Assembly: GCA_945878555.1 (NCBI GenBank)
Contig: CAMDWI010000008.1
Coordinates: 1 to 64,000 of the forward strand
Direction of reading: 5' to 3'
Origin: Klebsiella pneumoniae
Lineage (GTDB): Bacteria; Pseudomonadota; Gammaproteobacteria; Eutrophobiales; Eutrophobiaceae
Length of the DNA: 64,000 bases
The notes under the pieces are model-generated. The model was not told where the DNA came from. It searched no databases and worked only from the letters and a program-made list of their open reading frames with translations. The position numbers and the translations under genes are program-made. Positions 10,929-52,018 of this stretch are shown piece by piece (position 1 is the first letter of the stretch; the number at the start of each line of letters is the position of its first letter).

Positions 10929-13927
10929 GTTATCTCCTTGCTACTTTCTGGCGCTTCCATGGATGAGGCCGATATGTCCAGTGCTTCATCCAGCGCATCC
11001 ATGAACTCATTGACCTTGAATGGCTTGGTAAGATAGCGCATGAATCCTGCTTCCAGCCCCTTGTTGATATCACTACGCACTGCATTTGCACTTATCGCGA
11101 TTACCGGGATGTGTGTCGTCAACGGGTCGTCCTGCAACATTTTTAATGCCTGACTACCGCTAATGCCGGGCAAATTTATGTCCATCAGGATGACGTCCGG
11201 TTTTTCATTGTGCGCGAGTTCAACCCCAAGAATGCCGGTTACAGCTGTAAGCAGACGTATGTCGGTACGGCGCGCAATCAATTGTTCTACCAGCATCATA
11301 TTTGCCGGATTGTCCTCTACATAGAGCAAGGTTCGGGGATGCATACCTTGCTTTACTGTCTTTACAGTCCTGATAGTCGAACTCTCTACTGCAATTCCGG
11401 GTTTGGTCGTCGTCTCCAGTTCAAACCAGAAAACGGTTCCAACACCCACTGTACTGTCCACCCCTATCACACCTCCCATCAGTTCAGTAATGCGCTTGCT
11501 CATTACCAGGCCGATTCCAGTCCCTTCCTCCGTACTACTCTCCCGACCGAGCCGGTTGAACGGCTGAAACAGTTGGGTCAGTTTTTCCGGCGCCAATCCC
11601 GCACCTGTGTCAGCGATACTGACACGGGTACGCCCGGCTTTGCCCGCAGTACACGCAACAACAACCGATCCATTTGTACTGTTGTATTTAATCGCATTGG
11701 AAAGCAGATTGATAAAAACCTGCTTCAAACGGGTCCGGTCTGCCATGACAAAGTTGTTGACTCCTGGTCCGGGAAAAGTCATTTTGATACCACGCTTTTG
11801 TGCCAGCGGCTCGATCATTGCCTCGCATTCAAGCATGACTTCGGCCAGAGACACAGGCTCCTTGGACAAGGACAGTTTTCCGGACTCAATTACGGCAAGA
11901 TCGAGGATCTCGTTGATCAGTTCAAGCAGATACCAGCCCGCATGGAGTATCTGATCTATGCTGGCCTTTTGTGAGGGTGTGGCCGGCGGAGTGTCTGAAT
12001 TCATCAATTGTGCAAATCCCAGAATCGCATTCAGGGGGGAACGCAGTTCATGGCTCATGCTGGACAGGAAATCAGACTTGGCGAGGTTGGCCTTTTTTGC
12101 CACGGATATGGCACTCTCCAGCTCAATGTTCTTCTCCTGCAGAACCTGATCCAGACGTTTGCGCTCGGTGACGTCGCGTGCAGCAGCAAATACACCCTGC
12201 AGTGTCCTGTCCCGATCATAGAAGGTAGTCGCATTGTAGGAAACAACGGTTTCCTCACCGTCTCTGGCACGCGCAGTGAGCTCGAAATCGGTCACTTTTT
12301 TCAGGCTTAACACCTGTTTTATGGCGGCCTCGGCCCGTTCCGGATCGGTAAAACAATTCTTGAACGGGGCACCGATTAATTCATCACGAGTGCTACCGGT
12401 CAGCGCCTCCGTCTGTTTGTTTACATCGGTAATGATACCGGACGGATCGGTAGTCATAATTGCGTCTATATTCGATTCAATCAGGGAACGTGTGTAAAAC
12501 TGCTGATCACGCAGACGCTGATCAAGCTTCTTCTGCTCTGCCTCTACCTGCTTGCGTGCGGTATTATCAGTGCCGATCAACAGGTAACCAATTATTCCGC
12601 CCTGGGCATCGCGTAACGCAGTAACAGATACCACGGCCGGGAAGCGGCTTCCATCCTTGCGGATATAAGTCAGTTCATAGATATCCTCGATTCCACGCGA
12701 GGCCTTGAACACCAGCGCCTCAAAACCTGGCGTAATCGGGGTAGACAGTTCCGCACTCAAGGCCTTGGCCCGGGCGATGACTTCCTGGGGATCAGAGATA
12801 TCGGCCGGGGTAATCTTGTTCATCACATCGGCTGCCACGTAACCCAGCATACGCTCGGCACCTACATTAAAAATCTGGATGACACCTTTTGCATCGGTAG
12901 CAATGCTTGAAAAATTTGCACTGTTAAAGATAGCATTCTGCAGGGCTCCTGCCTTCAGCAGCTCGGCTTCGGCGTGCTTGCGTGCGGTATTATCAGTACC
13001 TATCAACAGATAACCAATAATCCCGTTTTCATCTTCGGCGTCACGCAGGGCGGTAACTGACACGACTGCCGGAAAACGACTGCCGTCCTTTCGGATATAG
13101 GTCAACTCATAGATATCTTCAATACCGCGTGAGGCCTTGAATACCAGCGCCTCAAATCCAGGCATAATTGGGGTCCCGAGTTCAAGGCTTAACGCCCTGG
13201 CTCGGGCAATCACTTCCTGCGGGTCAGAGATATCAGCAGGGGTAATCTTGTTCATCACATCGGTGGCCGCATATCCCAGCATACGCTCCGCACCAACGTT
13301 AAAGATCTGGATTACGCCCTTCGCGTCCGTTGCAATACTGGAGAAGTTGGCGCTGTTGAAGATCGCACTCTGGAGTGCTCCGGCCTTGCGCAGAGCCTCT
13401 TCTGCATGCTTGCGTGCAGTATTATCGGTACCAATCAACAGATAGCCTATGATCCCTTGCTGTTCATCACGCAGTGCCGTAACCGACACTACTGCCGGGA
13501 ACCGGCTGCCATCCTTGCGGATATAGGTCAATTCATAGATGTCCTCGATTCCACGTGAGGCCTTGAACACCAGTGCCTCGAATCCCGGGGTAATCGGGGT
13601 ATCGAACTCCAGACTCAACGTCGCTGCCCGCTCTACCACTTCCTGTGGGTCTGAGATATCGGCCGGGGTTATTTTGTTCAGTACGTCTGCTGCTGCATAA
13701 CCCAGCATGCGCTCGGCACCGACATTAAAGATCTGGATAACACCCTTTTCATCTGTTGCAATACTGGAAAAGTTGGCACTGTTAAATATGGCATCTTGTA
13801 GCGCACCTGTCTTGAGCAGGTTTCTTTGACGTCGAAACTCCGTTATCCCGCCCACACCAGGATGTTTATCATCAATCCTGTCATCGGATACCGTTTTTAA
13901 CACCGAATCTTCCACATTTATTGCCAT
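10925..13927 (-). CDS. Hybrid sensor histidine kinase with three near-identical PAS units
   Basis: The start at ATG 13927 (MAINVEDSV) is preferred to the TTG at 13969. No membrane span is visible, so it should be cytoplasmic. In ORF-track numbering, three PAS units begin near residues 54, 196 and 340, each 142-144 residues long and almost the same (FNSANFSSIATD... GYLLIGTDNTARK). A fourth, unrelated PAS follows (~505-625). The kinase core has His in SMSHELRSPLN (~640) and an ATPase domain with DTGAGLAPEKL and GTGIGLVMSK. A C-terminal receiver (~880-995) has the Asp in LMDINLPG. The cyclase response regulator follows with a 4-bp overlap. The long DNA repeats mean assemblies here may collapse units. 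Confidence 0.9.
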   Translation of the reverse strand: MAINVEDSVLKTVSDDRIDDKHPGVGGITEFRRQRNLLKTGALQDAIFNSANFSSIATDEKGVIQIFNVGAERMLGYAAADVLNKITPADISDPQEVVERAATLSLEFDTPITPGFEALVFKASRGIEDIYELTYIRKDGSRFPAVVSVTALRDEQQGIIGYLLIGTDNTARKHAEEALRKAGALQSAIFNSANFSSIATDAKGVIQIFNVGAERMLGYAATDVMNKITPADISDPQEVIARARALSLELGTPIMPGFEALVFKASRGIEDIYELTYIRKDGSRFPAVVSVTALRDAEDENGIIGYLLIGTDNTARKHAEAELLKAGALQNAIFNSANFSSIATDAKGVIQIFNVGAERMLGYVAADVMNKITPADISDPQEVIARAKALSAELSTPITPGFEALVFKASRGIEDIYELTYIRKDGSRFPAVVSVTALRDAQGGIIGYLLIGTDNTARKQVEAEQKKLDQRLRDQQFYTRSLIESNIDAIMTTDPSGIITDVNKQTEALTGSTRDELIGAPFKNCFTDPERAEAAIKQVLSLKKVTDFELTARARDGEETVVSYNATTFYDRDRTLQGVFAAARDVTERKRLDQVLQEKNIELESAISVAKKANLAKSDFLSSMSHELRSPLNAILGFAQLMNSDTPPATPSQKASIDQILHAGWYLLELINEILDLAVIESGKLSLSKEPVSLAEVMLECEAMIEPLAQKRGIKMTFPGPGVNNFVMADRTRLKQVFINLLSNAIKYNSTNGSVVVACTAGKAGRTRVSIADTGAGLAPEKLTQLFQPFNRLGRESSTEEGTGIGLVMSKRITELMGGVIGVDSTVGVGTVFWFELETTTKPGIAVESSTIRTVKTVKQGMHPRTLLYVEDNPANMMLVEQLIARRTDIRLLTAVTGILGVELAHNEKPDVILMDINLPGISGSQALKMLQDDPLTTHIPVIAISANAVRSDINKGLEAGFMRYLTKPFKVNEFMDALDEALDISASSMEAPESSKEIT

Positions 13928-28501: not shown

Positions 28502-29830
28502 ATGACGTTCGCGATCTGGGCAATTATTATTGGCACCCTGTTAATCACGATGGCCTTGTCCGGATCGTTGCTGAAAAGGCTGCCATTGAGTACGGCAATG
28601 TTGTACCTGGCCACAGGAGTAATCCTTGGGCCTGCAGGATTGTCCATGCTGACTCCCGACCCGCTTTTAAATTCTTCCGGTCTTGAAAAAATCGCCGAGA
28701 TTGCAGTGTTGATTTCCCTGTTTTCTGCCGGCATGAAACTCGGGCTGCCACTATCGAACAAACACTGGCGTTTGCCGGTAAGGCTTGCCTTTATTTCCAT
28801 GACCCTGACGGTGGCACTGGTCGTCCTCATCGGTACACTGGGACTCGGCATGTCACCGGGTCTGGCTATATTGCTGGGAGCAATCCTCGCACCCACAGAC
28901 CCTGTGCTCGCCTCTGACGTACAGGTTGCAGGTGACAAGGACCGTGACAGGCTGCGCTTCAGTCTGACCGGTGAAGGTGGATTGAACGATGGCGCGGCGT
29001 TCCCTTTTGTCATGCTGGGACTGGGCATGCTCGGCCTGCATGATCTGGGTATGTGGGGGTGGCGCTGGCTGGTAATTGATTTATTCTGGGCAGTTGCTGC
29101 GGGCTTGCTGATCGGGGCAGGGTTCGGCGCCATGATAGGAAAACTGGTGGTGTACATGCGCAGCCGTCATCATGAGTCGGTCGGGCTGGACGAGTTTCTG
29201 GCGCTGGGGCTCATTGCCCTGGCCTACGGTGTAGCGGTACTCTGTCACGGCTACGGTTTTCTTGCTGTATTCGCTGCCGGGCTTGCCCTGCAACGTGTCA
29301 AGGAACAACATATAATTGAGAACAGGACGGTAATGGAACCAGCCGGTGCGCAGGTAGGGCAAACGGAGGAACAACGTGCTACCGACCCGGAACATGCCAG
29401 CGCCTACATGATGCAGGCAGTTCGCGGTTTCAATGAGCAACTGGAACGGATTGGTGAGGTCGCCGTCGTCCTGGTCATTGGCGCGATGCTCGCCTACTCC
29501 CATGTTACCGGTAGTGCCGTATGGATGGTAATACTGCTCATCCTGATTGTACGTCCTGTGTCGGTATGGATTGGGCTACTCGGTGCGCCTGTATCACGTG
29601 ATCAACGCATGCTGATTTCCTGGTTCGGGATCCGGGGAATCGGCTCGATCTATTACCTGTTGTATGCGATCAATCATGGATTACCACTGCCACTGGCTGA
29701 CCAACTGATCACGATTACCCTCGCCACGGTCACGGTATCCATCGTATTGCACGGAATCTCGGTGACACCCCTGATGTCGCTCTATGCAAAGAGAAAGGCA
29801 CGACGTTCGCACAGAAAATCAGGCAGGTAG
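28502..29830 (+). CDS. NhaP-type (CPA1) cation:proton antiporter
   Basis: A 442-aa membrane protein with about a dozen hydrophobic segments. Family landmarks: PLSTAMLYLATGVILGPAGL, LPVRLAFISMTLTVAL, ILAPTDPVLASDVQ (the TDP-type ion-site motif), GLNDGAAFPFVMLGLG and WFGIRGIGSIYYL. It should exchange Na+ or K+ for H+ across the inner membrane. The start at 28502 is 15 bp after the PLD-like gene, so cotranscription is likely. The C-terminus is short and basic (KRKARRSHRKSGR), without a regulatory TrkA domain. Confidence 0.9.
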   Translation: MTFAIWAIIIGTLLITMALSGSLLKRLPLSTAMLYLATGVILGPAGLSMLTPDPLLNSSGLEKIAEIAVLISLFSAGMKLGLPLSNKHWRLPVRLAFISMTLTVALVVLIGTLGLGMSPGLAILLGAILAPTDPVLASDVQVAGDKDRDRLRFSLTGEGGLNDGAAFPFVMLGLGMLGLHDLGMWGWRWLVIDLFWAVAAGLLIGAGFGAMIGKLVVYMRSRHHESVGLDEFLALGLIALAYGVAVLCHGYGFLAVFAAGLALQRVKEQHIIENRTVMEPAGAQVGQTEEQRATDPEHASAYMMQAVRGFNEQLERIGEVAVVLVIGAMLAYSHVTGSAVWMVILLILIVRPVSVWIGLLGAPVSRDQRMLISWFGIRGIGSIYYLLYAINHGLPLPLADQLITITLATVTVSIVLHGISVTPLMSLYAKRKARRSHRKSGR

Positions 29831-29879
29831 ACCTGTACGATATCCAGTTACACGAAAGTATTTATTCTAAATAACTTTT

Positions 29880-30029
29880 CCGAAATCCACGACAGTTCAG
29901 ATTGGGCACGGGAATATTACCGTGACAGACCGTTAGCCGCATGGATGCGGCGCTCGAGCGTACATGGATGTATTCACAGCGTGTCTGGCAGGGTAATATT
30001 CCCGTGCCCAATCTGAACAGGATTTCGGA
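29880..30029 (+). mobile_element. MITE-like element, copy 2, opposite orientation within its hairpin target
   Basis: The core at 29896-30017 matches the core at 11-132 in the same orientation, with one interior difference seen (GGCAG against GGAAG) and identical 26-bp ends. Its flanks, CCGAAATCCACGACAG on the left and CAGGATTTCGG on the right, are the reverse complements of the right and left flanks of copy 1. CAG borders both ends. The core therefore sits in opposite orientation relative to the same 24-bp hairpin target (CCGAAATCC-loop-GGATTTCGG). It lies in the 229-bp gap between the convergent antiporter and ABC-permease genes. Confidence 0.82.
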
Positions 30030-30059
30030 ACAGTTATTTAGTGCCTATGGTGCAGTATT

Positions 30060-31094
30060 TCACATCCGCCAGCGTTTTTTCATCACCCACCATGACAGAA
30101 ACAACAGGACCAGACCGGCCGCTAACAGATAAACCAGATCCTGTGTGTAGTCAGAAAGCTCTCCACCTTCCAGCAGGACAGACCTGAACGGCTCGTAAAA
30201 ATGAAATGACGGTAACACAGGTGCAACACTGCTCAGGCTACTTGAAAAATCTGACAATGCCGCCGGCAACAGATTCGGCAGGTAAAACAACACACCCAGA
30301 GTGCGCGCGCTGGCCTGACTGCCACAGAGAAAGCCTAGAAAGATCCCGAACGCACTGAAACAAAACGCTCCAGCCACCAGCAACACAGCACATGCCAGGG
30401 TACTGCCAGCACCAGGGTAATATCCGCCCAGCAATTGCAGTAACCCCGCCGCAATACCGATCAGGATTATACCGAGCAGCAATTTTGCCACCAGCCATTC
30501 GATCTCCCGAACGGGTGTCTGTAACAATCCCAGCAACAGGTTCTTTTCCTTTTCCTCCGCAACCTGTACCGGCAAAATAATGAACCCGACCAGCAGCACC
30601 AGCATCAGGACCCAGGTCGGCAATGTCTGTTGCTGGATTCCGCTGTCATGCAAGGCCTGGACCCGGCCAATCCAGTTTTTGGTCTTGCCCTCAAATACGT
30701 TCTGTAATGCTGTAATACTCTCGACGATCGCGAGGGTCTGGTACGAGGCCCTGGTCAGGACTACCAGATCCATTTCACCCGGATTATCCACAGAGTTTGT
30801 CAACATGCCGTCTATTTTTTTATCCTGCAACAGGTTTTCACCTGCCTCAGTATCAACAAGCCAGGTAATTGCAAAGGCCTGGTCGGCCGCCTTGATACTG
30901 TCGAGCATGCCTGCAGAATAGTCTGCATCACCCAGAAGACCGATCCTGATCGTTTGTAAATCCGCTCCTTCCTGATCAACCAGTTGCAGCGATACAAACA
31001 CAAACAGCGGTATGAATATCACCAGCAGCAAGGTCTTGTTGGTAAACGCGATGGCCAGATCATTTCGCGTCAGCGTCACTACATTACGAATCAT
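30060..31094 (-). CDS. ABC-2 type transporter permease
   Basis: A 344-aa membrane protein with the ABC-2/NatB layout: one N-terminal span (KTLLLVIFIPLFVFVSLQL), an extracytoplasmic domain of ~140 residues, then about five spans in the C-terminal half. The last spans include LLQLLGGYYPGAG and FLCGSQASARTLGVLFYLPNLLP. It overlaps the ATPase gene by 4 bp. The pair should form an exporter, but substrate cannot be inferred. Confidence 0.85.
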   Translation of the reverse strand: MIRNVVTLTRNDLAIAFTNKTLLLVIFIPLFVFVSLQLVDQEGADLQTIRIGLLGDADYSAGMLDSIKAADQAFAITWLVDTEAGENLLQDKKIDGMLTNSVDNPGEMDLVVLTRASYQTLAIVESITALQNVFEGKTKNWIGRVQALHDSGIQQQTLPTWVLMLVLLVGFIILPVQVAEEKEKNLLLGLLQTPVREIEWLVAKLLLGIILIGIAAGLLQLLGGYYPGAGSTLACAVLLVAGAFCFSAFGIFLGFLCGSQASARTLGVLFYLPNLLPAALSDFSSSLSSVAPVLPSFHFYEPFRSVLLEGGELSDYTQDLVYLLAAGLVLLFLSWWVMKKRWRM

Positions 31095-50354: not shown

Positions 50355-50475
50355 TTTTATTACCGCCGTGCGGCGGTATTTTCTACTGGATTCCGGGGTC
50401 CGCATTCGCGGCCCCGGAATGACGACCTGTCATCACATGTTATTTTTGAGAAAGTTGGCCGGGATGTTTTACTTT
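50355..50475. repeat. Dispersed ~120-bp repeat, copy A
   Basis: It is about 90% identical by eye to 51900-52018 in the same orientation. It contains two palindromic units: CCGCC/GGCGG around a 4-nt loop, and CCGGGG...CCCCGG with a GTCCGCATTCGCGG-type interior flanked by TGGATT and AATGACG. Such extragenic palindromes are common in gammaproteobacterial genomes. The two copies flank the MerR-DUF2938-DUF2798 unit. Confidence 0.8.
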
Positions 50476-51899: not shown

Positions 51900-52018
51900 T
51901 TTTATTACCGCCCTGCGGCGGTTTTTTCTACTGGATTCCGGGTTCCGCATTCGCGGCCCCGGAATGACGACCTGTCATCACATGTTTTTTGAGAAACGTG
52001 GCCGGAGTGTTTTACTTT
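51900..52018. repeat. Dispersed ~120-bp repeat, copy B
   Basis: The second copy of the repeat at 50355-50475, same orientation, with small indels. Together with 52019-52136 it makes up a gene-free stretch after the DUF2798 gene in which I see nothing else. Confidence 0.8.

Follow-up and report, generated by a model that had tools for sequence, protein, structure and literature searches.

The window, by which we mean the whole stretch of 64,000 nucleotides analysed here, contains two copies of an element present in many copies, probably a non-autonomous mobile palindrome of YPAL type whose inside has been turned around in place by way of its close inverted arms. Comparison of orthologous sites in two genomes of the same genus supports, from alignments, such a reversal in place at two loci at least. 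The element forms a new lineage among YPAL-like mobile hairpins and shows a strand-specific constraint.

Structure of the two copies in the window

Copy 2 (29867-30041, + strand), delimited by search, folding and Pfam, is as a whole an imperfect palindrome of 175 bp, which folds as RNA at -104 kcal/mol (z -13.9). Its left tip CTAAATAACTTTTCCGAAATCC (29867-29888, +) pairs with the right tip in the fold and is followed by an asymmetric bulge, ACGACA (29889-29894, +), and by the left inner arm (29895-29921, +), the sequence of which varies among copies while its complementarity to the right arm is kept. The conserved core (29922-29991, +) is homologous to the core of YPAL/RU-2. It holds two hairpins with GGA loops, hairpin 1 GCCGCATGGATGCGGC (29936-29951, +; loop GGA at 29943-29945) and hairpin 2 TACATGGATGTA (29961-29972, +; loop GGA at 29966-29968), the second GGA lying 23 nt past the first. 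The right inner arm (29992-30018, +) and the right outer arm (30019-30041, +), composed of A and the tip GGATTTCGGAACAGTTATTTAG, complete the element.

Copy 1 (1-161, +), whose left tip is cut off at the contig edge, consists of inner arms at 10-36 and 107-133, a core at 37-106, the bulge TGTCGT at 134-139 and a right tip at 140-161; its bulge thus lies to the right of the core, and that of copy 2 to the left. The blocks containing the cores (10-133 and 29895-30018) are identical at 123 of 124 positions and equally oriented, as the first-pass annotation had stated. That annotation also described the flanks as exact reverse complements of each other. This is true of 9 nt on one side, where the left end of copy 1 (1-9, CGAAATCCT) matches the right of copy 2 (30019-30027), and of 16 nt on the other, where 134-149 of copy 1 matches the left of copy 2, but beyond these stretches the match decays (70 nt at 86%). 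The asymmetry that can be seen comes from an internal loop, in which ACGACA stands opposite A. What is reversed around the cores is not one target sequence, as had been supposed, but the element's outer arms, which belong to the same imperfect palindrome of about 175 bp. With about 96 family members in the genome, the resemblance of the copies goes far beyond chance. The annotation was right in what it observed and partly right in what it took this to mean.

Copy 1 starts at base 1 of contig C8, and contigs C29 and C32 end in the same sequence as its first 147-149 bp; four other contig ends also lie inside the element. The assembly was thus interrupted at copy 1 by a repeat node that three contigs share, so it is less certain how this copy is phased with its unique flank, and its orientation depends on the assembler. 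These contig ends would fit a wrong short-read path through the palindromic repeat, with an orientation that is not real. We consider such an artefact very improbable for the family as a whole, because copy 2 and most other copies are internal to contigs, and reversed and unreversed sites alike were found inside contigs, in two separate genomes and in diverged sequence.

Copy 2 lies between convergent genes, a Na+/H+ exchanger (28502-29830, +) and an ABC-2 permease (30060-31094, -); the exchanger, the ABC transporter and a PLD-domain protein are found beside it, and a Pfam search of the neighbouring genes revealed no recombinase. The window also contains three repeats of about 300 nt, spaced 430 nt and 67-78% alike (12543-13700), and a 91-nt direct repeat with hairpins that is 96% identical (50355-50445 and 51900-51990).

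Family size and distribution

A covariance model made from 57 copies matched about 96 times in the source genome (G000) and about 52 times in a second genome of the genus (G004), and found no copies in three other same-genus genomes. The spacing of the window's copies, which had been remarked on for bracketing 30 kb of genes, is ordinary, as about 96 copies in 3.55 Mb amount to one per approximately 37 kb, and this genome-wide number rules out a composite transposon around that interval.

The element was carried by 52 of 274 sampled Gammaproteobacteria genomes. Among the matches listed in an exact-pattern scan of named genomes were Marinobacter, Rheinheimera, Stenotrophomonas, Yersinia, Pectobacterium, Pantoea, Methylomonas and others, and the same core was present in Yersinia similis. 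Across 58 genomes, the element had no visible association with RAYT (Y1_Tnp) genes; since it does not track them, a RAYT-driven REP/BIME repeat was ruled out. The tips are inverted repeats, CTRAATAAC...GTTATTYAG, and a search for this pattern, allowing 3 mismatches at most, detected it only in the elements and in a few single copies, with no pair of insertion-sequence size. A MITE of a known insertion sequence was rejected because no autonomous partner sharing the ends was found in the genome.

Two variants of the element were observed. A long-core subfamily (L091, L092, L192, L195 and L196) has about 80 extra bases within hairpin 1, and this additional domain contains further GGA hairpins with the loops TTAAGGAG and TACAGGGATGTA. 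At four places in G000 (C20:10453-10715, C36:12853-13119, C32:19124-19374 and C21:74409-74665), two elements lie in direct tandem, spaced by about 140-150 bp.

Core orientation at orthologous sites

We compared 43 element sites of G000 for which both flanks matched G004, mostly at 85-93% identity. The core had the same orientation at 26 sites and the reversed orientation at 8, and was absent from G004 at 9. An inversion model raised the alignment score strongly at all 8 reversed sites (for example from 331 to 482 and from 290 to 436), while the gain at the 26 same-orientation controls was never above 6. The comparison of loci in sister genomes that had been proposed for the window's own copies found no DNA-level match for those two loci in other same-genus genomes, but it did reveal reversals at 8 of 34 other sites. 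The suggestion that the core flips between its inverted repeats is consequently supported on an evolutionary time scale.

At two reversed pairs, L222/L203 and L089/L171, no other copy matched the arms as well as the orthologous locus did, indicating that the same insertion had probably been turned in place; a partial inverted duplication is also present at L089/L171. Unlike arms were seen at L188/L180 and L190/L214, a difference that fits independent insertion or arm replacement. The arms of the other four reversed sites cannot tell, mostly since they belong to an abundant subfamily.

These differences bear on whether the element is simply inserted either way round at preferred 3'-end sites, with no turning in place. 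The unlike arms at L188/L180 and L190/L214 speak for this explanation, and the strong bias towards gene 3' ends described below would allow one site to be used twice. Nevertheless, L222/L203 and L089/L171 are reversed and yet share locus-specific arms, and independent insertion leaves unexplained why, within one family, the core is reversed relative to its own outer arms; both orientations of the outer arms relative to the core recur in G000 and in G004. We therefore regard independent insertion as an unlikely general account. The earlier proposal of insertion in both orientations fits the two sites with unlike arms, but not the two that appear to have been turned in place.

The breakpoints of the reversals varied: some adjoined the core or fell within the inner arm, and others were close to the tips. 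This variation is consistent with the inverted arms of one element rearranging with each other. A dedicated phase-variable switch, in which a site-specific recombinase flips the core and so alternates which convergent gene has the GGA hairpins, would also produce reversals, and as the copies lie mostly between convergent genes, each flip would swap the sense gene. Such a switch is nonetheless extremely improbable: the breakpoints vary, no recombinase adjoins copy 2, about 100 copies are dispersed, and generic inverted-repeat rearrangement suffices.

No clean empty site, and with it no target duplication, was seen among the orthologous loci, and several core-less sites retain the outer hairpin (L115, L132, L174 and L206 in G004). 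At L115, which is orthologous to L091, the lost segment is bounded by CCGTG direct repeats. The core-less shells suggested that the core had been inserted into a pre-existing palindromic target; this candidate was set aside because the loss between the CCGTG repeats of L115 reads as a deletion. The case for mobility therefore comes from the patchy distribution, the copy number and what is published on YPAL, and from these we infer that the element moves by transposition.

Conservation of arm pairing and strand-specific constraint

In the arm helix, 91.6% of the arm cells were paired, and 24 of the 27 arm pairs showed changes on both sides. Covariation over the whole structure was 0.554, compared with 0.142 in shuffled and below 0.1 in slid controls. 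Within the core, stem 1 was variable with some compensation, and its loop was kept.

The odd pairs in the arms were strongly asymmetric, with a G.T to A.C ratio of 66:4 in the alignment used for covariation. With the register picked on Watson-Crick pairs only, the ratios were 49:3 in G000, 34:2 in G004 and 43:9 in a class-wide sample. This excess of G.T over A.C indicates a constraint on how the core strand folds, and it disfavours arms that are matched merely by neutral palindrome correction. Strand-biased deamination of C retains a residual likelihood as the source of the asymmetry. The constrained strand would presumably act as RNA or as single-stranded DNA.

Gene context

Copies lay between convergent genes in 69 of 116 cases, compared with 44 of 315 neighbouring gene pairs, and between divergent genes in only 1 of 116. 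At least one gene 3' end faced 115 of the 116 copies having called neighbours. These gene calls came from a simple codon-usage script and not from a published gene finder. A class-wide count of gene context on the pattern-scan loci was unreliable, with 22 copies inside called ORFs.

Among tandem genes, the core was in sense orientation in 15 copies and antisense in 31. These numbers speak against read-through and do not support a function as part of the upstream mRNA, so a role of the GGA strand as an mRNA 3'-UTR was left unsupported. Nor do the gene-orientation counts support the predicted CsrA binding of the hairpins. The GGA-loop hairpins resemble CsrA sites in type, and CsrA was encoded in 8 of 8 genomes tested, with or without elements. 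It is conceivable, although quite improbable, that the twin GGA loops are real CsrA/RsmA sites on a mobile hairpin found throughout the Gammaproteobacteria, that dispersed copies titrate or recruit CsrA, and that inversion between convergent genes decides which transcript carries the site.

Discussion

Close inverted repeats are able to rearrange with each other, and this forms the basis of the arm-to-arm mechanism that we favour. A strand-specific conserved core with two GGA hairpins is framed by fast-evolving, compensating inverted arms, and the element settles at the 3' ends of genes. Its close inverted-repeat arms would allow the inside to turn in place, and recombination or replication template switching between the arms is the most likely route. 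Such turning would explain why copies 1 and 2, for example, have identical cores but reversed outer arms. We infer that the turn is a generic rearrangement from arm to arm, with no dedicated recombinase.

Small palindromic repeats are usually seen as inert. Here, two genomes appear to show the inside of one reversed at the same place without loss of its strand-specific fold, and the core, described earlier from Yersinia, is now found across the Gammaproteobacteria. The family provides a natural system in which rearrangements of short inverted repeats can be counted. It also makes an old question, whether such repeats act as RNA, as single-stranded DNA or as neither, directly testable, CsrA binding included.

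Several known systems share features with the element. RF01731 (TwoAYGGAY) is a proposed CsrA-binding RNA (PMC4333381) and, like the element, has two AYGGAY-type loops in neighbouring hairpins; it gave no match above the cut-off, and a single weak match (27 against 43 bits) at L061 in a relative, on the same strand as the core of that copy. The SELEX consensus of CsrA, RUACARGGAUGU, is placed in a hairpin loop, and bridging occurs over 10-63 nt (PMC7652899). CsrA-binding RNAs of the CsrB/RsmZ kind have pairs of GGA loops 10-63 nt apart, a range that includes the 23 nt seen here. ERIC (RU-1), compared by its descriptions in the literature, likewise consists of dispersed, imperfect, intergenic palindromes of similar size, but its sequence differs. 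The Rfam family RF02770 (Ysr224, Yersinia sRNA 224) covers the strand opposite to that of the YPAL element in Yersinia similis and in Pectobacterium, and reached only 20 bits on the window, against a cut-off of 70 bits. At L246, L297 and L256, RF02770 was complementary to the YPAL element, so this Rfam family may annotate the repeat as an sRNA.

The closest parallel is YPAL/RU-2 itself. YPAL is known to insert close downstream of stop codons. YPALs are described as palindromes of 167-168 bp near dyad-symmetric targets, with duplications of 3-26 bp (PMC2229807), and are presumed to be mobile and to duplicate their targets (PMC2759123, PMC2229807); the publications consulted contained no account of reversal at orthologous sites. 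Our core aligned with the published YPAL/RU-2 sequence (PMC2759123) at a local score of 54, compared with at most 26.5 in 500 shuffles. Both are palindromes of about 168 bp that form one long hairpin (175 bp here), and they share a homologous core, many intergenic copies, dyad-symmetric surroundings and a position at gene 3' ends, as in 115 of 116 copies here. They differ in arms, tips and host lineage. According to a review, YPAL has internal inverted repeats, whereas the present element has inverted tips; for this reason we regard it as a relative with a similar way of working, and not as YPAL proper.
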